Assembly: GCA_027624235.1 (NCBI GenBank)
Contig: JAQBYB010000015.1
Span: 1-50,950, forward strand
Origin: Pseudomonadota bacterium
GTDB taxonomy: Bacteria; Pseudomonadota; Alphaproteobacteria; Rhodospirillales; Casp-alpha2
Reading direction: 5' to 3'
Length of the DNA stretch: 50,950 bases
The first letter of the stretch is position 1; every line of letters starts with the position of its first letter. Made by a program: the position numbers and the translations under genes. Below are positions 4,803 to 13,408 of this stretch, in pieces. A model generated the notes under the pieces. That model saw only the letters and a list, made by a program, of their open reading frames with translations. It had not been told where the DNA came from and did not search any database.

Positions 4803-5256
4803 GGTTAAGGCCCCCGAGGCGCGCCGCCCATGAGCCCAACCCCTGTAGCGTCGCTTGACGTTGGCCGTCTTCAGCGCCCGCCGCCAGGGAAAGGTCAAGC
4901 CGGTCGGCCGGCAACAGGTTCCCCATCCGGTCTGGCCATTCGATCAACGAGATACCGTCGGCGAAGGCGTCCTCCATGCCGAGTTCTTCCAATTCATCGG
5001 CGCCTTCAATCCGATACAGATCGAAATGATAAATCGCGATTCCCTTGGGGTCGTCATAGGTCTGCACCAGGGTGTAGGTCGGGCTCGGGACTTCTTCGGG
5101 ATGGTCGGCGCGGGCGTTGATGAAGGCGCGGGCGAAGACGGTCTTGCCGCTGCCCAGATCACCCGACAGCGCAATGACGTCACCGGGTCTGCAAACACCA
5201 GCCACCGTTTTGGCAAGGGCGGCGGTGGCGGCTTCATCGGCGAGGTCAATCATCAT
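4795..5256 (-). CDS. tsaE: TsaE, ATPase for tRNA t6A37 synthesis
   Basis: 153 residues, typical of TsaE (YjeE). The P-loop is ALSGDLGSGKTVFARAF, followed by the family block VPSPTYTLVQTY and the acidic FHFDLYRIEG-like stretch (here YHFDLYRIEG). TsaE works with TsaB and TsaD to put threonylcarbamoyl on A37 of tRNAs that read ANN codons. The start overlaps the 3' end of the divL-like gene, and its stop overlaps the kinase start, so all are likely read as one operon. A second Met directly after the first is an equally good start. Confidence 0.95.
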   Translation of the reverse strand: MMIDLADEAATAALAKTVAGVCRPGDVIALSGDLGSGKTVFARAFINARADHPEEVPSPTYTLVQTYDDPKGIAIYHFDLYRIEGADELEELGMEDAFADGISLIEWPDRMGNLLPADRLDLSLAAGAEDGQRQATLQGLGSWAARLGGLNHD

Positions 5257-7642
5257 CGCCGCTCATTCCCTTATCCGATTCCGTTTCCTTGTCCGGTGCT
5301 TGCGCCGGCAGACGGCAGGTGATGGTGGTGCCGCGCCCCGGCGGGGATTTCACATCGACATCCCCGTCGTGCATGGCAATAAAGCTGCGCACCAGGCTGA
5401 GGCCCAGCCCGGCGCCGCTTTTATCGGCCCCGGGCTCGCTTCCCTGTACAAACGGCTGGAACACGCGTTCGCGGTCGGCTTGCGGAATGCCGATGCCGGT
5501 GTCGGCGACGGTGAGGATCAGGTCGTCGCCTTCGCGCCGGGCTTCCAGGCGCACGGTGCCGCGTTCCGGGGTGAAGGTGGTGGCGTTGGTGAGCAGATTG
5601 AAGATCACCTGTTTCAGGCGCTTCGCATCGGCGATGATCCAGCCGATATCGGGCGGGCAGTCGAACTCCAGTTTCAAATCTTTTTTCCGCGCCCGGTCCC
5701 GGACCATGTTCAGGGCCGACACTAACAGCCCATGCACGTCGAGGGTGTCGCGATCCAGGGTCATCCGCCCGGCCTCAATAGAAGCAAGATCCAGAATGTC
5801 GCTGACCACCGACATCATGCCGTTGGTGGTATCAAGAATACCCTTGGCGTATTCGCTCTGGCGGCGGTTGAGCTTGCCGAAATATTCCTGGCCGAGCATG
5901 TCGGCGAAGCCGATGATGGTGGTCAACGGCGTGCGCACTTCATAGGACACGTTGGCGATGAATTCGTTTTTCAGCCTATCGGCCTCGCCCAGGGCCTCGG
6001 CGCGAAGACGCAATGCGTTCTCGACATTGGCGGTATCGGTGACGTCCAGATAACTCAACAGCATGGCGCCATCGGGCAACGGCAGGTTGGCGTAATCGAT
6101 GACCGTGCCGTTGGCCAGCTCCAGCTTTCCGGTGGTTGCCTCGCGCTTCATCAGCCGGTTGACCACACGTTCCTTATGGACGCCCCAGCTTAAATCATCC
6201 CAGCCGCCTTCGACGGTCAGGTGCTGGCGGCTGTGGTCGACGAAATCGGTGACATGGAAGGTGTCGTCCAGCACGTCTTCCTTCAGGCCCCAAAGCCCCA
6301 TGAACACCGGATTGAAAAGTTTCAACCGGCCATCGGCGCCGAACACGGCGATGCCTTCATGCAGGTTATTCAGGGTTTCCTTCTGCACCGCGCCCAGGGA
6401 TTTAAACGACCGTTCCAGGTCCAGCCGGTCGGAGACATCATTGAAAGCGAACACCAGCCCATCTTTGCCGTGGCGGTTGACGAGCGCCCGGATGGCGCGC
6501 CCGTCGGGAAGATGCAGGAGGTCTTCGCAAGGTCTCGACAGGGTTTCGAATTGTTCCAGTTGGCGCAGCTTGTAATCTCGGAAATCGGCCATTTCCGGCA
6601 ATTTTCTGTGTTCGCGCAGGCGTTCCAGGATTTCACCCAAATCCGGTTCGGCTGTCAGCCAGTCCGGCTCCAGGTCCCAAAGCGTGGCGTAGGCGGTATT
6701 GAAAAACCTGAGCTTGACGTCGGCGTCGAAAATGGCGATGGCGGTGTCGAGGGTTTCCAGAACGGCGTTGCGTTCGGCCTGTAAGCGCGCAAATTGATCT
6801 TCCTTTACTTCGGATTCGGTGCGGTCGATGGCAAAACCGATGGTGCCGCCGGTGGCGCCGCCGTCTTTTTCGTTGCCGCCGCCCACAATACCGAGCGGCA
6901 TTTCGGTCACCTCCATCAGCCTGTCCTCGCCGCCGACGTTGACGTGCAGCCGTTCGGTGACGGACCCCCGTTGGTGGCGGGCGCGCGCCGCCATGTCGGC
7001 ATCGGCGGAGACGACATTGCGGGCCGCGTGGTTAATGAAGGCCAGTGAAAGTGTTGAATCCCTGAGCCACACCGGCAACGGCATGGCGTCCAGCAACGCC
7101 GTCAGGTGGCGGTCTTCCAGGCCAGAGGTGTTGATCGATGACACCCGCCGCCCGACCCCGGCGTCCCCGGTGCCGGTGATGTCGCGCATCCACACCATAT
7201 CGGCGAGCAACTTGCCGTCATCGGTTTCGGCGCGCCCGCCGATCGCCTGGATTCGGCGCCGGCCTGAGGTCAGCAACACATCGAACGGCGTGCCGGCGCC
7301 GCGCAACAGCGACACGCATTGTTCCAGCGCCTTCAGGGAGTCGCCCTCGAAACGCTCCCGCAGGTCGTCATAGCGCGACAGGATGCCGTCCTTGAGGTTG
7401 AGCAGCACCGCCAATCGCCGCGAGCACGCGAAGCCGCCATTGGCGTAATCCCACAGAAACAGGCCGTCCGGGGCGGCCGCCAGCATTTCTTTTGCCTTGA
7501 GGGCAACCGCCTCCAGCCGTCGCCGTTCGGTCTCGACGCCATTCAGTTTTTGGCGTTGCAGGATGACCACCACAAGCGCAACCACGGCCACCACGGCGGC
7601 GCCGGCTACGAAGGCTTGCAGCGGGTCAATTTCGGTAAACAC
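5246..7642 (-). CDS. divL: DivL-like PAS sensor pseudo-histidine kinase (Tyr in the H-box)
   Basis: 798 residues. One membrane segment at about 9-29 is followed by several PAS-like regions (one begins near AAPDGLFLWDY, another near NLHEGIAVFGADG). The dimerisation box reads EFIANVSYEVRTPL: the usual SHELRTPL histidine is Tyr567 (codon at 5942-5944). The ATPase domain keeps its motifs: N-box LKQVIFNLLTNAT, G1 ADTGIGIP and G2 GAGLGLSLV. A Tyr at this place, the length (Caulobacter DivL is about 770 residues) and the tsaE neighbourhood all point to DivL, a polar regulator that controls CckA in the CtrA cell-cycle pathway. The assignment to that pathway is by homology. Confidence 0.85.
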   Translation of the reverse strand: MFTEIDPLQAFVAGAAVVAVVALVVVILQRQKLNGVETERRRLEAVALKAKEMLAAAPDGLFLWDYANGGFACSRRLAVLLNLKDGILSRYDDLRERFEGDSLKALEQCVSLLRGAGTPFDVLLTSGRRRIQAIGGRAETDDGKLLADMVWMRDITGTGDAGVGRRVSSINTSGLEDRHLTALLDAMPLPVWLRDSTLSLAFINHAARNVVSADADMAARARHQRGSVTERLHVNVGGEDRLMEVTEMPLGIVGGGNEKDGGATGGTIGFAIDRTESEVKEDQFARLQAERNAVLETLDTAIAIFDADVKLRFFNTAYATLWDLEPDWLTAEPDLGEILERLREHRKLPEMADFRDYKLRQLEQFETLSRPCEDLLHLPDGRAIRALVNRHGKDGLVFAFNDVSDRLDLERSFKSLGAVQKETLNNLHEGIAVFGADGRLKLFNPVFMGLWGLKEDVLDDTFHVTDFVDHSRQHLTVEGGWDDLSWGVHKERVVNRLMKREATTGKLELANGTVIDYANLPLPDGAMLLSYLDVTDTANVENALRLRAEALGEADRLKNEFIANVSYEVRTPLTTIIGFADMLGQEYFGKLNRRQSEYAKGILDTTNGMMSVVSDILDLASIEAGRMTLDRDTLDVHGLLVSALNMVRDRARKKDLKLEFDCPPDIGWIIADAKRLKQVIFNLLTNATTFTPERGTVRLEARREGDDLILTVADTGIGIPQADRERVFQPFVQGSEPGADKSGAGLGLSLVRSFIAMHDGDVDVKSPPGRGTTITCRLPAQAPDKETESDKGMSGDDD

Positions 7643-7659
7643 CGATTGAGATTAAACGG

Positions 7660-7692
7660 CTGCCCACCCCCTCACAAGAGGGGGGTGGGCAG
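7660..7692 (-). terminator. Strong stem-loop between the radical SAM gene and divL-like gene
   Basis: The arms CTGCCCACCCCCTC and GAGGGGGGTGGGCAG pair over 14 bases with a single bulged G and an ACAA loop. On the minus strand it lies 34 bases after the radical SAM stop and is followed by CCGTTTAATC, a weak T-run. It probably ends the upstream transcript, so the divL-like gene would need its own promoter in the small space before 7642. Confidence 0.6.
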
Positions 7693-7725
7693 CGCCAGAG
7701 GTCCGCTTTTGCCCCATTGCTGGAT

Positions 7726-9231
7726 TTAGTCTGTGAGCTCAGCTGGTTTTGCTGGTATGGCGTCCGTTGAGTACCGCATCGCTTTAACCTCTCGGTAGGT
7801 GTCCGGCTGGGCCTTTGCCATGCCGCCGATGAACACTTCGCGAGAGTTCCAGAAGTACTGCCATGCTTGCCACACGGGAATGTCGAAAAATTTTATATCT
7901 TCCCAGTGATTTAAGTAATGCAATGGCATGAATACCTTTGCCCACTTCTTGGAAAGCAACGGCTGTGCGTAGCGGAGGAAGAACGGAAATCGCCGAAACA
8001 TCCCGGCTGCCCAGGTCATGTTGCTGATAGAGTCGAAGTTGCCGTACAGGTCCTTCGCCTTGTAGGTAAACTCGCCGATCCCTTCGCTGAGATCATTTGC
8101 GATTGCGTAGTTGGAAATTTCCGTTCCCCTGTACATTTTCAGGATGCTCACCCTGATGCCGTAGGGATTTAGGGAACTCGCAAACCTAACGCTTTCTATG
8201 GCCTGTTCCAGAGACTCGTTGGGCAGACAGAACATGATATTGACGATGAATTTGAAGTCATGGTTGCGCAGAAGGGTTGCGATCTCGACGTAGCGCGCAT
8301 TGGTGATTTTCTTATTGAGGACGGTTAGCCGGGTTTCCTCGACACCGCACTCCAAGCCGAAAACACCGCCGCGGCATCCACCGTCCCGCAACGCTATTAT
8401 GGTGCCTTCGTCAAGACTGGTGATTTCTATATTGCACGAGAAATCAAGATCGAAGGCCTCCTTGTACTTCCTCGAAAATGTCTTCACCCACGTCTTGTCC
8501 AAATTGAAGATGTCATCACAAAAATGTATCCGTCGGGTCGGATATTTCCGGAGGATATGTTTTATGTCGGCGATGACGTAATCGATGCTGTGCCGGCGGA
8601 AGACCTTCCCCAATCCCTTGTACATGTCGAAATAGGTGCGCTCGAAGCAATAGGAACATTTATAGGGGCAACCCCGACTGGTGATTACCCTTTTGACCGC
8701 GAAGTTCGCCAACAACGGATATTGATCGTAATACAGCCCTCGATCCGGGAACGGATATTTATCGAGATTTTCCTCGGGCGGGGCCAGAGGATTACACGCC
8801 CATCCTGTCGCAGTCCTGACCAGAAGGCTCTGTACGTCGGCATGGCCCTGGCCCGCCTCAATGCGGCTCATGAGCGTTAACAGAGGTTCTTCACCATCGC
8901 CGATGCAGATAATATCAACGCAGCCGGATGCCATGACGTCTTCGCTCATGAACATGCAATGGGGGCCACCCCAGATCACCGTGCGCCCGGTTTTTTCCTT
9001 GATCAATTCGGATATGTGCCGGAATTGCTCGACCTGCGGGGTCATCACCGAAAAGCCGACGAGGTCCGGATCGACATCCTCAATGTGCTCGATGAGATGT
9101 TCGAGTCTTTTGTAATCCTGAAGTAACGTCAAATTGACGTCGTGGCCGTTCGCCTTCAGGTATGCGCTCAGGTACATGAGTCCCAAGCTTTCGTTTACGC
9201 AATTGTCGCTGACGAACAAGATGCTGGCCAT
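7726..9231 (-). CDS. B12-binding radical SAM protein, substrate unknown
   Basis: 501 residues from the ATG at 9231, which has AGGATCA just upstream; the frame is open to 9294, but the extra 21 residues look unlike the family. The N-terminal ~130 residues (ILFVSDNCVNESLGLMYLSA, then DPDLVGFSVMTPQ and TVIWGGPHCMF) match the Rossmann-type B12-binding domain found in BchE/HpnJ-type enzymes. The cluster motif is SRGCPYKCSYC (CxxxCxxC, three Cys for a [4Fe-4S] cluster). Such enzymes methylate or rearrange unactivated carbons. The reaction here cannot be read from sequence. The gene stands alone, with a possible Fnr-type box about 120 bases upstream, and is more AT-rich than its neighbours. Confidence 0.88.
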   Translation of the reverse strand: MASILFVSDNCVNESLGLMYLSAYLKANGHDVNLTLLQDYKRLEHLIEHIEDVDPDLVGFSVMTPQVEQFRHISELIKEKTGRTVIWGGPHCMFMSEDVMASGCVDIICIGDGEEPLLTLMSRIEAGQGHADVQSLLVRTATGWACNPLAPPEENLDKYPFPDRGLYYDQYPLLANFAVKRVITSRGCPYKCSYCFERTYFDMYKGLGKVFRRHSIDYVIADIKHILRKYPTRRIHFCDDIFNLDKTWVKTFSRKYKEAFDLDFSCNIEITSLDEGTIIALRDGGCRGGVFGLECGVEETRLTVLNKKITNARYVEIATLLRNHDFKFIVNIMFCLPNESLEQAIESVRFASSLNPYGIRVSILKMYRGTEISNYAIANDLSEGIGEFTYKAKDLYGNFDSISNMTWAAGMFRRFPFFLRYAQPLLSKKWAKVFMPLHYLNHWEDIKFFDIPVWQAWQYFWNSREVFIGGMAKAQPDTYREVKAMRYSTDAIPAKPAELTD

Positions 9232-9557
9232 TGATCCTGCTTCCCGATGACCGTTATCGTTAAGGCCCCGCCTCCCCCTCGCCGCCGACGACATGGGGCA
9301 TTTGAATCGAAAGTCCGGTCGATATTGATCACAATGCGGAGACCGGCGCTTTGACTTTTGTCAATGTGCGAAAATATTGGGTTGCGGGGAAAATCAAGAC
9401 GCGCCCGGTGATCAATGCCTGCTGTACCCCAGAAAGCGGACGGTATGACGGTTATCGAAAAACGTCAGCTTGTGACCTATTAGCGGTCATTGGGCATGAA
9501 AGTCTATGCTCAACATCAATGGAATGCAGCGCTGTGATGCGGCTCTCATTTGTGTAA
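9232..9557. other. 326-bp intergenic region upstream of the radical SAM gene
   Basis: No convincing gene. It holds an Fnr-type palindrome (9351-9364), and an inverted pair CCGGTC / GACCGG that brackets about 20 bases near 9315-9346. The remaining AT-rich stretch to 9557 lies past the stop codon of the SET-domain gene and shows no clear terminator. Confidence 0.5.
9351..9364. promoter_or_regulatory. Fnr/FixK-type palindrome
   Basis: TTGACTTTTGTCAA is a perfect inverted repeat that fits TTGA-N6-TCAA, the core recognised by Fnr/FixK-class regulators. It lies about 120 bases before the start of the radical SAM gene read on the minus strand, a plausible place for an activator site if the leader is 60-80 bases. 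A Crp/Fnr-family regulator is encoded at 34320-35012, but nothing shows that it binds here. A chance match is possible. Confidence 0.4.
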
Positions 9558-9971
9558 TTAAACGGAGATTTTTTCTTGCATGCCGATGTTTCTCATGATG
9601 GGTGAATAGCTCTCCCAATCAGCATCAAAATGGCGGTAATTGGAAGTCAATTCTTCACCTTTTTTAATGCTCTTTGCAGCGAGCCAATTGGTTGCCTCAT
9701 CGAAATAAGTGTTGGGCATATTGGAATGATTCGTAAATCGGTCATTATCAATCGAAATGTAGTAAAAACCGTCACGCAGGTCCCGATACCCATATACTTT
9801 GAAATATTCATGGATATTAGGGTGAAGCGAATCAAATTCCTCCGGGGTATAGCGCCGATCAAAAGCCTCTTCAAAACTCCAGAGCAGCGTATCTTTTTTG
9901 ATCGCAACCAAGGAAAACAGGCCTAGCCCGTGAATCCGACTGGGGCCTACATAGGTCGGTATTAGCATCAT
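9558..9971 (-). CDS. SET domain protein, possible lysine methyltransferase
   Basis: 137 residues, essentially one SET domain. Visible parts are the N-terminal GLGLFS motif (15-20), the SAM-site signature NHSNMPN (81-87) and the C-terminal GEELTSNY (105-112) with its conserved Tyr. SET proteins transfer methyl groups from SAM to lysine side chains; small bacterial ones have mostly unknown targets. It starts 6 bases after the PLP decarboxylase stop codon, so the two are almost surely co-translated. The pair is clearly more AT-rich than the chromosome around it, which suggests transfer. No post-SET cysteines are present. Target unknown. Confidence 0.85.
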   Translation of the reverse strand: MMLIPTYVGPSRIHGLGLFSLVAIKKDTLLWSFEEAFDRRYTPEEFDSLHPNIHEYFKVYGYRDLRDGFYYISIDNDRFTNHSNMPNTYFDEATNWLAAKSIKKGEELTSNYRHFDADWESYSPIMRNIGMQEKISV

Positions 9972-9977
9972 CGCCGT

Positions 9978-11159
9978 TCAATCCTTATTCGAGGAAACGC
10001 TAACAACTTCGGCATAGCCAAAGCCGTTAAAATCACTGCGCAGGGATTGGCTGTAAGCCCCCGCATTTTCAAACACAATCCAATCGCCAATGCCGATATC
10101 CGAGGGCAATACAAAAGGCCCTTCCATCATATCGAGCGAGTCACAGGTCGGTCCGGCTAAGCGGTACTCCTGAAAATTATCATCAAAAGCGCGGTCGCAA
10201 GATATGGCGGAAACGGCATAGCGCGTGCCCACCCATTTTGCCGCATCAAACAACCCGCCATAGACACCGTCATTGATGTAAAGAAGATTGCCTTTGCGCA
10301 GTTCCACCCGCGTCACCAACTTGGCGCCGCCGGCAACCAAAATACGCCCCGGCTCAGCCATCAGGGAAAGATGGGATAAAGCGTGTCTGTCCAGCGCATT
10401 TTGAATGGCGGTTACATAATCGTGCAGGCCGCACATATCCCCATCACCCTCATAGGCAACGGGAAAGCCGCCGCCAACATTCAGGCAGTCCAGATTCACC
10501 TTACTGGCTTCGATCAGTCTGGCGCAAAAAGATATGGCTTTAGCGTATTTGCCGGGGTCCGTTGTTTGGGTGCCGACATGAAAACTCAAACCCAGAACTT
10601 TTGAGATCGGACGGCATTTTTTGAGCAGATCGACCGCCTCTTCAAAACACGCTCCAAACTTTTTTGAAAAATCAATGAGCGCCTTGCCGTTTTTTGGTAA
10701 GGCAATGCGCACTGTCAGGTTCAAATCCTGCGCCAGTTTTGTCTCGCGCATAATTTTGAACAGTTCTTCTTCGTGATCCAACACGAAATGCCGTACGCCA
10801 TAATCGAAATAAGCCACGCGAATATCTTCCGGCGTTTTGACAGTATGCATAAAATGCATCTGAGCGTTTGGGAACAAGCTATTAATGCGCTTTAATTCTG
10901 CCAGAGACGCAATATCAAAAGCTTGAATGCCACCTTTTTTTAGAGCTTTCAGCACTTGGCGATCAGGATTGGTTTTGACGGCATAAAGCGGCAATCCCGG
11001 GAAAGCGGCGATAAACTCCTGCGCCGCCTGCTTTATGATTTTCGGGGACAGCGCATAAAGCGGTTTTGTCGGACGCATTTTCAGCACCATACCCTGAAAA
11101 TCATCGTTTTCGTATGAGCGGGATCGCAGGGCACTGCCCTGCTGTAGATTAACGGCCAT
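9978..11159 (-). CDS. Type III PLP-dependent decarboxylase (ornithine/lysine decarboxylase-like)
   Basis: 393 residues, normal for the alanine-racemase-fold decarboxylases. The PLP lysine lies in LYAVKTNPD (Lys62), the phosphate-binding glycines in NVGGGFP, the PLP-ring contact in MAEPGRILV, and the C-terminal catalytic Cys in GPTCDSLD (Cys339). This set is typical of eukaryotic-type ornithine decarboxylase and bacterial lysine/ornithine decarboxylases, which make putrescine or cadaverine. Substrate preference cannot be decided from sequence. The N-terminus has an extra ~25 residues before MVLKMRPTKPLYALS, so a start at 11090 is an alternative. It is followed at once by the SET gene. Confidence 0.88.
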   Translation of the reverse strand: MAVNLQQGSALRSRSYENDDFQGMVLKMRPTKPLYALSPKIIKQAAQEFIAAFPGLPLYAVKTNPDRQVLKALKKGGIQAFDIASLAELKRINSLFPNAQMHFMHTVKTPEDIRVAYFDYGVRHFVLDHEEELFKIMRETKLAQDLNLTVRIALPKNGKALIDFSKKFGACFEEAVDLLKKCRPISKVLGLSFHVGTQTTDPGKYAKAISFCARLIEASKVNLDCLNVGGGFPVAYEGDGDMCGLHDYVTAIQNALDRHALSHLSLMAEPGRILVAGGAKLVTRVELRKGNLLYINDGVYGGLFDAAKWVGTRYAVSAISCDRAFDDNFQEYRLAGPTCDSLDMMEGPFVLPSDIGIGDWIVFENAGAYSQSLRSDFNGFGYAEVVSVSSNKD

Positions 11160-11598
11160 GTTCTTGCGCTTCGATCAAAACGTTGAAAGTTTCAATAGAA
11201 GCGCTAATGACACTTAAGGAGCGCCTTTGGTCCCCCCGTGCCGCAATAGTACGTTTCATCATGCAAACCCTTCCACATCCCGGCGGATCGTACATATACG
11301 AAGTCCCCCCGATTTAAAAAAATTCACGCCGTTACATATAACCATGGCTTTTGTGTCGAAGGTTCAGTGGCACGTGACGTTAATTGCTATTAAGCGGCTT
11401 TTTGGAAAAAGGGAATAGAAAATTTCACGTCAGTTGAATTTTTTTTCACAGCGCTGAAGATTGAAGCCGAATGCCGGCAGAAGGATTTAAGGCATGTGTT
11501 GCATCGACCGGTTGAGGCGCCCCCTAATGCGGACATCCGTTTCCCGGTCACGGGCCGGCTGTCCATGCTGGTGGACTGGGATCGGGCGGCGGGAGGGC

Positions 11599-11627
11599 TT
11601 GACATTTCCTACAAATTGTACTATATT
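11599..11627 (+). promoter_or_regulatory. Near-consensus sigma-70 promoter
   Basis: TTGACA (11599-11604) and TATATT (11622-11627) are separated by exactly 17 bases. Transcription would start near 11634 and run rightwards through the 11-bp repeats toward the 3' end of ahcY, which is on the opposite strand. No good gene follows within reach, so the product may be a non-coding or antisense RNA. Prediction only. Confidence 0.55.
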
Positions 11628-11775
11628 TGTTCTTTCCGTGACGGTGTTGGGAAATTGCTCTTTGACTTGTGAATATGAACAAAATCGCTCCCCGTGGCCC
11701 AACATGTGGACGCGGCGACAAGGTGCGTTCGCGGCGCAGCCGCGGAAGAGAACGTTGCCGGCGAAGGGCCGGGAA

Positions 11776-11891
11776 ATGTCCACCAAACCACTACCCGATG
11801 TCCACCCGATGTCCACTCAATGACTACCGGATGTCCACCCAATGTCCACCGAAACCCCGTCAATGTCCACCAATGTCCACCAATGCCTACC
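11776..11891. repeat. 11-bp helically phased tandem repeat, unit ATGTCCACCNN
   Basis: ATGTCCAC occurs at 11776, 11798, 11809, 11831, 11842, 11863 and 11873. Degenerate copies fill the gaps at about 11787, 11820, 11853 and 11883, giving about eleven units spaced 10-11 bases, close to one helical turn. Because 11 is not a multiple of 3, the unit changes frame at every copy, which argues against a repeat-containing protein. It could be a protein-binding array or simply slippage-derived sequence. Confidence 0.8.
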
Positions 11892-11941
11892 TTTTGAAAA
11901 AATGGGCAGCGGCGAAGGGCCTCACGATGGGGCAAGGTGCC

Positions 11942-11985
11942 CGCCTGGAATACGCCTGGAATACGCCTTGAAGTCGCCTGAAAGC
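11942..11985. repeat. Second 11-bp tandem repeat, unit CGCCTGGAATA
   Basis: Four units start at 11942, 11953, 11964 and 11975, each exactly 11 bases apart; the first two are identical and the next two degenerate (CGCCTTGAAGT, CGCCTGAAAGC). The unit differs from the array at 11776 but shares its period. It ends about 25 bases before the ahcY stop codon. Confidence 0.75.
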
Positions 11986-12010
11986 GGCGCGGTCGCGGCC
12001 CCGAGGCTAA

Positions 12011-13408
12011 TTAGTAGCGATACGAATCCGGCTTGAACGGGCCGTTTTCGCCGACGCCGATGTAATCGGCCTGCGCCTTGCTGAGCTTGGTCAGTTTGAC
12101 GCCGAGCTTGTCGAGATGCAGGGCGGCGACCTTTTCGTCCAGGCGCTTGGGCAGGACGTAGACCTGTTTGCCGTACTCGCCGGGCTTTTGCCACAATTCC
12201 ATTTGCGCCAGCACCTGGTTGGTGAAGGACGCGCTCATCACGAAGCTGGGATGGCCGGTGGCGCAGCCCAGGTTCACCAGGCGGCCTTCGGCGAGCAGGA
12301 TAATCCGCTTGCCGTCGGGCAGTTCGATCTCATCGACCTGCGGCTTGATGTTGGTCCATTTGAAGTTGCGCAGGCCTTCGACCTGAATTTCGCTGTCGAA
12401 GTGGCCGATGTTGCAGACGATGGCGCGATCTTTCATGGCGCGGACATGATCGACGGTAATGACGTCGATGTTGCCGGTGCAGGTGACGAAAATGTCGCCC
12501 CGGGGGGCGCCGTCTTCCATGGTGACAACCTCGAAGCCTTCCATCGCCGCCTGCAACGCGCAGATCGGGTCGGGCTCCGTCACCAGCACCCGGCAGCCGG
12601 AACTGCGCAGACTCTCCGCCGAGCCCTTGCCGACGTCGCCATAGCCGGCGACCACGGCGACCTTGCCGGCCATCATCACGTCGGTGGCGCGGCGGATGCC
12701 GTCGACCAGGCTTTCGCGGCAGCCGTATTTGTTATCGAACTTGGATTTTGTCACCGAATCATTGACGTTGATGGCCGGGAACAACAACGTGCCCTTTTCC
12801 TGCATGCCATAGAGACGGTGCACGCCGGTGGTGGTTTCCTCGGTGACGCCCCGGATGTCCTTGGCGGCGTTGGTGTACCAGCCGGGTTTTTCGGCCAGTT
12901 TCTTTTTGATCGAGGCGAACAACACTTCTTCTTCCTCATTGCCCGGCTTGTCGAGGACGGAGGGGTTGGTCTCGGCTTCGATGCCCAGGTGCAGCAGCAG
13001 CGTCACGTCGCCGCCGTCATCGAGGATCATGTTGGCGGTGCCGCCGTCGGACCAGTCGAAAACCCGGTGCGCGTAGTCCCAGTATTCGACAAGGCTTTCG
13101 CCCTTAACGGCGAACACCGGCGTTCCCCCGGCCGCGATCGCCGCCGCGGCGTGGTCCTGGGTCGAGAAAATATTGCAGGTCGCCCAACGAACATCGGCGC
13201 CCAAGGCCTTCAGGGTTTGAATCAACACCGCCGTCTGGATGGTCATGTGCAGCGAGCCGGCGACGCGCGCGCCCTTGAGCGGCTGACTGTCCATGAATTC
13301 GTCCCGGATCGCCATCAGGCCGGGCATTTCCGTTTCGGCCAGGGAGATTTCCTTATCTCCCCATTCGGACAAGGAAAGGTCGGCGATCTTGTAATCATCA
13401 AACGGCAT
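12011..13408 (-). CDS. ahcY: S-adenosylhomocysteine hydrolase
   Basis: 465 residues, full length. AhcY splits S-adenosylhomocysteine into adenosine and homocysteine, clearing the product inhibitor of all SAM methyltransferases. The tightly bound NAD site is [17 protein letters not shown], and the C-terminus ends in KPDSYRY, the family's conserved tail whose Lys and Tyr reach the neighbouring subunit's cofactor. The start at 13408 has GAGGAGCGCCACC directly before it. In many alphaproteobacteria ahcY sits next to the PTS/chvGI block, as here. Confidence 0.97.

Follow-up and report, generated by a model that had tools for sequence, protein, structure and literature searches.

Organisation of the locus

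The window, by which we mean the whole analysed stretch of 50,950 nucleotides, carries on its minus strand a decarboxylase gene (11159-9978) that is followed after 6 nt by a SET gene (9971-9558), both of them intact. The features of the region are listed here by their position in the window.

5246..7642, minus strand: histidine kinase, native flank, 71% and 67% identical to its counterparts in G002 and G007
7726..9294, minus strand: B12-binding radical SAM protein, a neighbour taken to lie outside the foreign pair
9558..9971, minus strand: single-domain SET protein of 137 aa, predicted lysine N-methyltransferase (Pfam PF00856)
9972..9977, minus strand: gap of 6 nt between the decarboxylase stop and the SET start
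9978..11159, minus strand: ODC-like PLP decarboxylase of the alanine-racemase fold (fold III), 393 aa (PF02784 and PF00278)
11775..11883, no strand: imperfect 11/33-bp tandem repeat of the ATGTCCACC type in the spacer downstream of ahcY
12011..13408, minus strand: ahcY, native flank, 94% identical to that of genus mate G004

The preliminary description had placed the two genes 6 bases apart on one strand and had seen that their base composition differs from the ahcY side, and both observations were confirmed. The GC content was 0.43 for the SET gene and 0.497 for the decarboxylase gene, compared to 0.612 for ahcY and 0.618 for the histidine kinase gene. At the third codon position the values were 0.478 and 0.533 for the pair against 0.83 and 0.772 for ahcY and the kinase gene, and the flanking kinase, ahcY and ptsP genes together ranged from 0.77 to 0.83. 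Between 7600 and 13600 no known RNA element scored above threshold. The 11-mer GGTGGACATTG of the tandem repeat at 11775-11883 occurs in three copies in the window, where 0.03 are expected. A defence function of the pair was rejected, since PADLOC returned no defence-system match for the two genes.

Origin of the pair

The decarboxylases closest to the window copy (65-72% identity) and the SET proteins closest to the window SET (49-52% identity) were found in the same order, here called the Micavibrio-containing order because it includes G433, whose locus L040 bears the name Micavibrio sp. Within this order, the window decarboxylase was 72% identical to that of G914 and 70% to that of G432. 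In a quick tree of 117 decarboxylases it was placed inside the set of the Micavibrio-containing order, next to G914, and a second decarboxylase copy of the host genome, on contig C145, grouped with the genus mates. The SET tree was calculated with 53 of 57 SETs, four of more than 190 aa being excluded, and joined the window SET with those of G869 and G903 in a supported trio (100/96), both relatives coming from the Micavibrio-containing order. In the family of the window, SET was present in 1 of 48 genomes.

The genus mates G002 and G007 have the arrangement ptsP-ahcY-spacer-kinase without the pair, with other ORFs in the spacer, which measures 1.9 and 1.5 kb, respectively. With G004 the window has a stretch in common at 11599-11912 (67%), which places the foreign piece at lower coordinates. 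Based on the trees, the synteny, the third-position GC and the rarity of SET in the family, the pair was probably acquired horizontally from Micavibrio-like relatives. The host genome is a draft of 159 contigs, and the region of the pair may be misassembled. Contamination is argued against by ahcY (94% to G004) and the kinase gene (71% to G002), which share the contig with the pair.

Within the genus, insertions into the spacer between ahcY and the kinase gene vary (window 7643-12010, L172 7530-9415, L174 6835-8313). In the window it contains the foreign pair together with the radical SAM gene; G002 has cold-shock-like and pentapeptide-like ORFs there, and G007, with a spacer of 40% GC, a recombinase-like ORF. 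The ORFs of the two mates were named by eye. The radical SAM gene was rejected as a third member of the foreign pair because relatives with 69-77% identity sit on other contigs of the three genus mates G002, G005 and G007. Its product (7726-9294) had a weak PADLOC candidate match, PDC-M51A with 42.9 bits, which is probably a generic match to B12-radical SAM proteins.

Mobile elements were searched for the pair as well. Of 50,697 phage records, 8 contained SET relatives, as did 15 of the 72,556 plasmid records, all with less than 60% identity. In six of these 23 records no decarboxylase was listed near the SET gene, one of the six (Azospirillum) having no annotated features and the plasmid gene table being incomplete, and none of the six was among the matches listed by tblastn of the decarboxylase (E<=1e-30, with a length filter). 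Five SETs on viral contigs had no decarboxylase match. Likewise, an HMM search (E<=1) of 40 viral decarboxylase loci found no SET; tblastn gave two matches at E=0.037 at best, which were not counted. An origin of the pair from a phage or plasmid was thus unsupported by the phage, plasmid and viral-contig searches.

The SET protein

In the Pfam profile search, the SET protein matched PF00856 with 38.7 bits (cut-off 22.4), and the catalytic motifs are present, which bears out its earlier naming as a SET-domain protein. No NCBIfam model matched. In an alignment of 25 rows that includes the window protein (A6), the residues G15, G17, D75, R78, N81, H82, N87, E107, T109 and Y112 were invariant. The motifs GxG, NHxxxPN and ExTxxY, the last with the catalytic tyrosine, were invariant or nearly so in the 25 rows, and we take them to be the cofactor and catalytic motifs of the window SET.

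The AlphaFold model (pLDDT 87.5) shows nothing but a SET domain and, at its C-terminus, a short tail predicted with low confidence. Compared to the PDB, it showed the SET fold (E 3.8e-7, prob 1.00) with the SET domains of MLL, ASH1L, EZH2 and the chlorella-virus vSET (3kma) among the matches. The 50 fold matches shown had TM-scores by query length of 0.54-0.68 and identities of at most 25%, and a profile search returned the same families. With vSET (PBCV-1 A612L) and the MLL/KMT2 SET domains, the window protein has the single SET fold and the motif set in common; these enzymes are listed as histone H3 lysine enzymes, but the window SET is at most 25% identical to any of the 50 matches shown. 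Wherever a name was listed, the solved SET match was a histone or protein-lysine methyltransferase. Judged from its motifs, the window SET should be an active methyltransferase, and by family precedent it is expected to methylate lysine side chains of proteins.

Parts of a review on bacterial SET proteins view them mainly as chromatin or host-directed enzymes (PMC3980110).

Specificity of the decarboxylase

The decarboxylase scored 135.6 bits with PF02784 (cut-off 23.4) and 44.6 bits with PF00278 (cut-off 23). The preliminary description was correct in naming a PLP decarboxylase but not in its ornithine/lysine specificity, since the neighbours of the relatives and the specificity helix point to arginine and agmatine. 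Ten residues of the catalytic site, which we take to be its Lys/His/Cys/Tyr set, were checked and each was invariant in 117 of 117 rows. A wrong-frame row (L161) that had entered alignment A4 is excluded from alignment A5.

The closest solved sequences were lysine/ornithine decarboxylases, ODCs and the chlorella-virus arginine decarboxylase. An ornithine or lysine decarboxylase, with which the pair would start putrescine or cadaverine synthesis directly, is favoured by the best PDB sequence match, the lysine/ornithine decarboxylase of Vibrio vulnificus (2plj), and by the best fold matches of the model, which were ODCs with the PBCV-1 arginine decarboxylase just behind. Relatives with 36-37% identity on Rhizobium plasmids point in the same direction, as does a gene adjoining 17 of 76 decarboxylase relatives that presumably encodes a homospermidine synthase, a putrescine-using enzyme; no NCBIfam model matched its representative. 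In addition, parts of one report describe alanine-racemase-fold ODCs of 377-385 aa in other alphaproteobacteria, A. tumefaciens, P. denitrificans and B. abortus (PMC11999265).

Against such a specificity, the scores were far under the cut-offs of the LysA model TIGR01048 (150.4 vs 297.9) and of the ornithine/lysine decarboxylase model DokD, NF052544 (79.3 vs 700), and the residues of the specificity helix differ between 2plj and the window enzyme. The specificity aspartate in the 'YDH' of mouse and human ODC, presumably Asp332, is replaced by a non-acidic residue at the aligned place of the window enzyme in one pairwise alignment each, and 116 of the 117 subfamily rows keep a D or E elsewhere in the helix. 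Agmatine-handling genes also lie beside decarboxylase relatives, as described below. Because these neighbours and the sequence of the specificity helix point to arginine and agmatine, the window enzyme is most probably a short ODC-like arginine decarboxylase, and an ornithine or lysine decarboxylase appears rather improbable.

Short arginine decarboxylases of the alanine-racemase fold are covered in parts of two reports, an ancestral-size enzyme and the ODC-like enzyme of a chlorella virus (PMC8503589, PMC7857480). The latter type, PBCV-1 A207R (2nva/2nv9), has the fold and the ODC size of the window enzyme, which matched 2nva with E = 3.8e-35 over residues 25-385 and a model TM-score of 0.77-0.78. 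A207R differs in being viral and only 28-29% identical. PBCV-1 also encodes a bare SET protein, A612L, and the two viral genes are presumably far apart, judged from the gene numbers.

Agmatine genes around the decarboxylase relatives

In the host genome, the second decarboxylase on C145 is 44% identical to the window copy and is followed by an agmatinase (TIGR01230, 184.7 against a cut-off of 174.3). An agmatinase-like gene, named by eye, was found at the same place after the native decarboxylase of the genus mates G005 and G007. Locus L040 has a gene that scored above cut-off as N-carbamoylputrescine amidase and another, resembling agmatine deiminase, that stayed under cut-off; the relative in G914 adjoins a CdmS-type synthase above cut-off. 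Of 76 loci, 28 had a deoxyhypusine-synthase/CdmS-like gene within five genes of the decarboxylase and 19 an agmatinase-like one. These counts refer to the 76 loci called out of 81 tried (L047, L053, L065, L071 and L073 were left out); the genes were called by a greedy longest-ORF script that is prone to wrong frames in GC-rich DNA, and the neighbours were clustered by BLAST, with only representatives, from other loci, checked by model. Arginase-family genes were present in six of seven genomes checked; as a point against the explanation proposed below, none was detected in G439, one of the genomes with the pair. Agmatine-using genes are found beside close decarboxylase relatives, and the window copy itself has none adjacent.

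For Thermus, parts of a report describe an agmatine-based homospermidine pathway with CdmS and a SpeB-like ureohydrolase (PMC10981699). As in that pathway, decarboxylase relatives adjoin a CdmS-type synthase (G914) or CdmS-like and agmatinase-like genes (L039), whereas the window pair has neither a CdmS nor an agmatinase gene beside it.

At L039 8001-14082, genes judged by eye to be GNAT-like, RimK-like ATP-grasp (a long one), CdmS-like and agmatinase-like follow the decarboxylase gene in this order, with another ATP-grasp gene at the end; together they are possibly an agmatine/polyamine-peptide cluster. A long gene resembling the RimK-like one lies directly before SET in L004, also by eye. 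A possible RimK-like ATP-grasp link was noticed by eye at a single locus for each of the two families.

Recurrence and rarity of the pair

The order decarboxylase-then-SET on the same strand was observed in three lineages, represented by the window, by G903 of the Micavibrio-containing order and by G412, G442, G440 and G439, the four genomes of an unrelated genus, g283. The G903 pair adjoins an agmatinase and NspC, both above cut-off, and lies also beside a carboxynorspermidine synthase-like gene that scored 430 bits, under the cut-off of 800.

The frequency of the pairing was followed from the SET side in several groups of genomes. Among 385 genomes of the class, 29 had a SET match, and the window and G412 were paired with a decarboxylase among the 30 loci returned. 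Of 398 genomes of the phylum, 57 matched SET, and the 30 loci returned contained no pair besides that of the window. In the order of G412, a SET match was found in 7 of 15 genomes; the four with the G412-type SET (G412, G442, G440 and G439) all had the decarboxylase directly upstream. SET matches came from 25 of the 142 genomes of the Micavibrio-containing order, where G903 was the paired one among the 30 loci returned; two further places for which no locus was returned lie, by position, away from any decarboxylase. These two orders were picked by choice, and counts that draw on them, those of the neighbour control below included, are not random samples.

The preliminary description had named it as evidence against the pairing if the two genes were usually apart in related genomes, and this is what we found. 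No SET was detected in the best 80 decarboxylase loci of the genome collection (tblastn E<=1, HMM), several of which end near the gene; the sole exception was L044, where a borderline HMM match (E 0.88) lies some 7 kb from the decarboxylase. In the Micavibrio-containing order, the decarboxylase was present at E<=1e-40 in 74 of 142 genomes, and it was paired in 1 of the 74. A search of the seven genomes behind the near decarboxylase loci with P0001 gave a SET match in two (G434 and G435), neither of them adjacent. In G434 and G847, SET lies on the contig of the decarboxylase at a distance of 24-26 kb, and the SET of G869, which is closest to the window SET on the tree, is not adjacent to a decarboxylase either. 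Adjacency is hence not kept in most relatives of either gene. Adjacency, order and strand do recur in unrelated lineages, and this recurrence keeps the idea of a joint function alive, although most copies seen of each gene are apart.

The paired SETs are 37-49% identical to the window SET. A single clade of the six paired SETs was rejected by the AU test (p = 0.0206, with long branches in play). Because the paired SETs are not one clade, the pairing may have arisen more than once.

Neighbours and signs of coupling

For a control, we compared the neighbours that are common to SETs less than 55% identical to each other, using 57 SETs. The decarboxylase was recovered across the three lineages, with at least 360 residues and 37-51% identity. 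An SDR-like family, named by eye, occurred beside six divergent SETs with 28-35% identity and varying side and strand. A diguanylate-cyclase family was found beside four SETs, on two plasmids, where it lies directly downstream, and in two genomes; in L188 another ORF lies between the two genes. A second SET was a neighbour of several SETs, and three SETs of the Micavibrio-containing order had a near-identical syntenic block in common. The decarboxylase was thus not borne out as the clearest recurrent neighbour among the 57 SETs.

On the Rhodobacterales plasmids L143 (5001-7750) and L144 (5001-7600), SET stands directly before a gene for a bifunctional diguanylate cyclase/phosphodiesterase. Tandem SET genes, distinct from the decarboxylase-paired SET, were seen in L038 (7705-9044), L125, L126 and L128-L137 (family f81).

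Several sequence properties of the pairs bear on a coupling of the two genes. In the four-genome genus of G412, dN/dS was 0.12-0.32 for SET and 0.08-0.21 for the decarboxylase, indicating purifying selection on both. All six paired SETs, and 3 of the 51 unpaired ones, have the sequence YRxFD after the catalytic tyrosine, the motif having been picked after viewing the alignment. In G903, the gap of 151 nt between decarboxylase and SET contains a terminator-like hairpin, one of 4 such sites in the region where 3.2 are expected. The gaps of 54-94 nt in the four genomes of genus g283 have strong hairpins as well (z -4.2 to -5.6). The hairpins speak against a tightly coupled unit.

The hairpins in the g283 gaps are located at L121 1906-1959, L122 1903-1956, L123 1429-1500 and L124 1407-1500, and no obvious T run follows the stem.

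A possible function of the pair

The fold, the motifs, the foreign origin and the recurrence come from computation. The same two families standing side by side in at least two other lineages hints at a shared job. In the best explanation as a whole, which we hold to be plausible at nearly an even chance, a two-gene unit of Micavibrio-like origin would have been acquired horizontally and set into the variable spacer between ahcY and the histidine kinase gene. Its upstream gene would encode an ODC-like arginine decarboxylase producing agmatine, an entry to putrescine, spermidine or homospermidine, in a host that already has its own decarboxylase copy adjoining an agmatinase. The downstream SET, a motif-complete methyltransferase, would modify a component of agmatine/polyamine metabolism; this step is suggested because at least three lineages have the two families in one and the same gene order. 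A functional link between SET and decarboxylase, taken by itself, falls slightly short of an even chance.

The likeliest joint function is protein-lysine methylation within agmatine/polyamine metabolism, and almost as likely is a SET that has no functional tie to the decarboxylase and arrived together with it in a spacer that gains and loses genes. The latter is consistent with the different cargo of this spacer in G002 and G007, with both genes travelling among alphaproteobacteria and with the terminator-like hairpin between the two genes in G903. Most decarboxylase loci examined are also without a SET neighbour, most SETs examined are without a decarboxylase, and other gene families likewise recur beside divergent SETs. 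What argues against a mere passenger is the same order and strand in three lineages with SETs as divergent as those paired here, and the retention of the pair under purifying selection across four genomes of one genus.

If methylation within agmatine/polyamine metabolism is the function, the simplest target of the SET would be the decarboxylase itself, although we consider this unlikely. No lysine peculiar to the paired decarboxylases was seen when paired and unpaired enzymes were compared.

The side chain of lysine, H2N-(CH2)4, is chemically like the aminobutyl ends of polyamines. The lysine channel of the SET might accordingly accept putrescine, spermidine or homospermidine by the aminobutyl end, which would then be N-methylated, and the G903 pair is co-located with agmatinase, NspC and the carboxynorspermidine synthase-like gene. 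This is very unlikely, since the direct product agmatine ends in a guanidine and the named solved SET matches are histone or protein-lysine methyltransferases; protein lysines were, according to parts of a 2005 survey, the substrate of all SET enzymes studied by then (PMC1282579). The narrower proposal that the polyamine comes from the pathway of the paired decarboxylase has a still slimmer chance. If true, SET enzymes, known as protein-lysine methyltransferases, would also act in small-molecule polyamine biosynthesis.

Among the titles and abstract starts covered by our literature search, none described a coupling of SET with a decarboxylase of arginine or ornithine. The enzymes themselves are known, their recurrent association apparently unreported. 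With this recurrent partner, the SET protein can be given concrete candidate substrates, either the decarboxylase or a different protein or metabolite from the synthesis of agmatine and polyamines.
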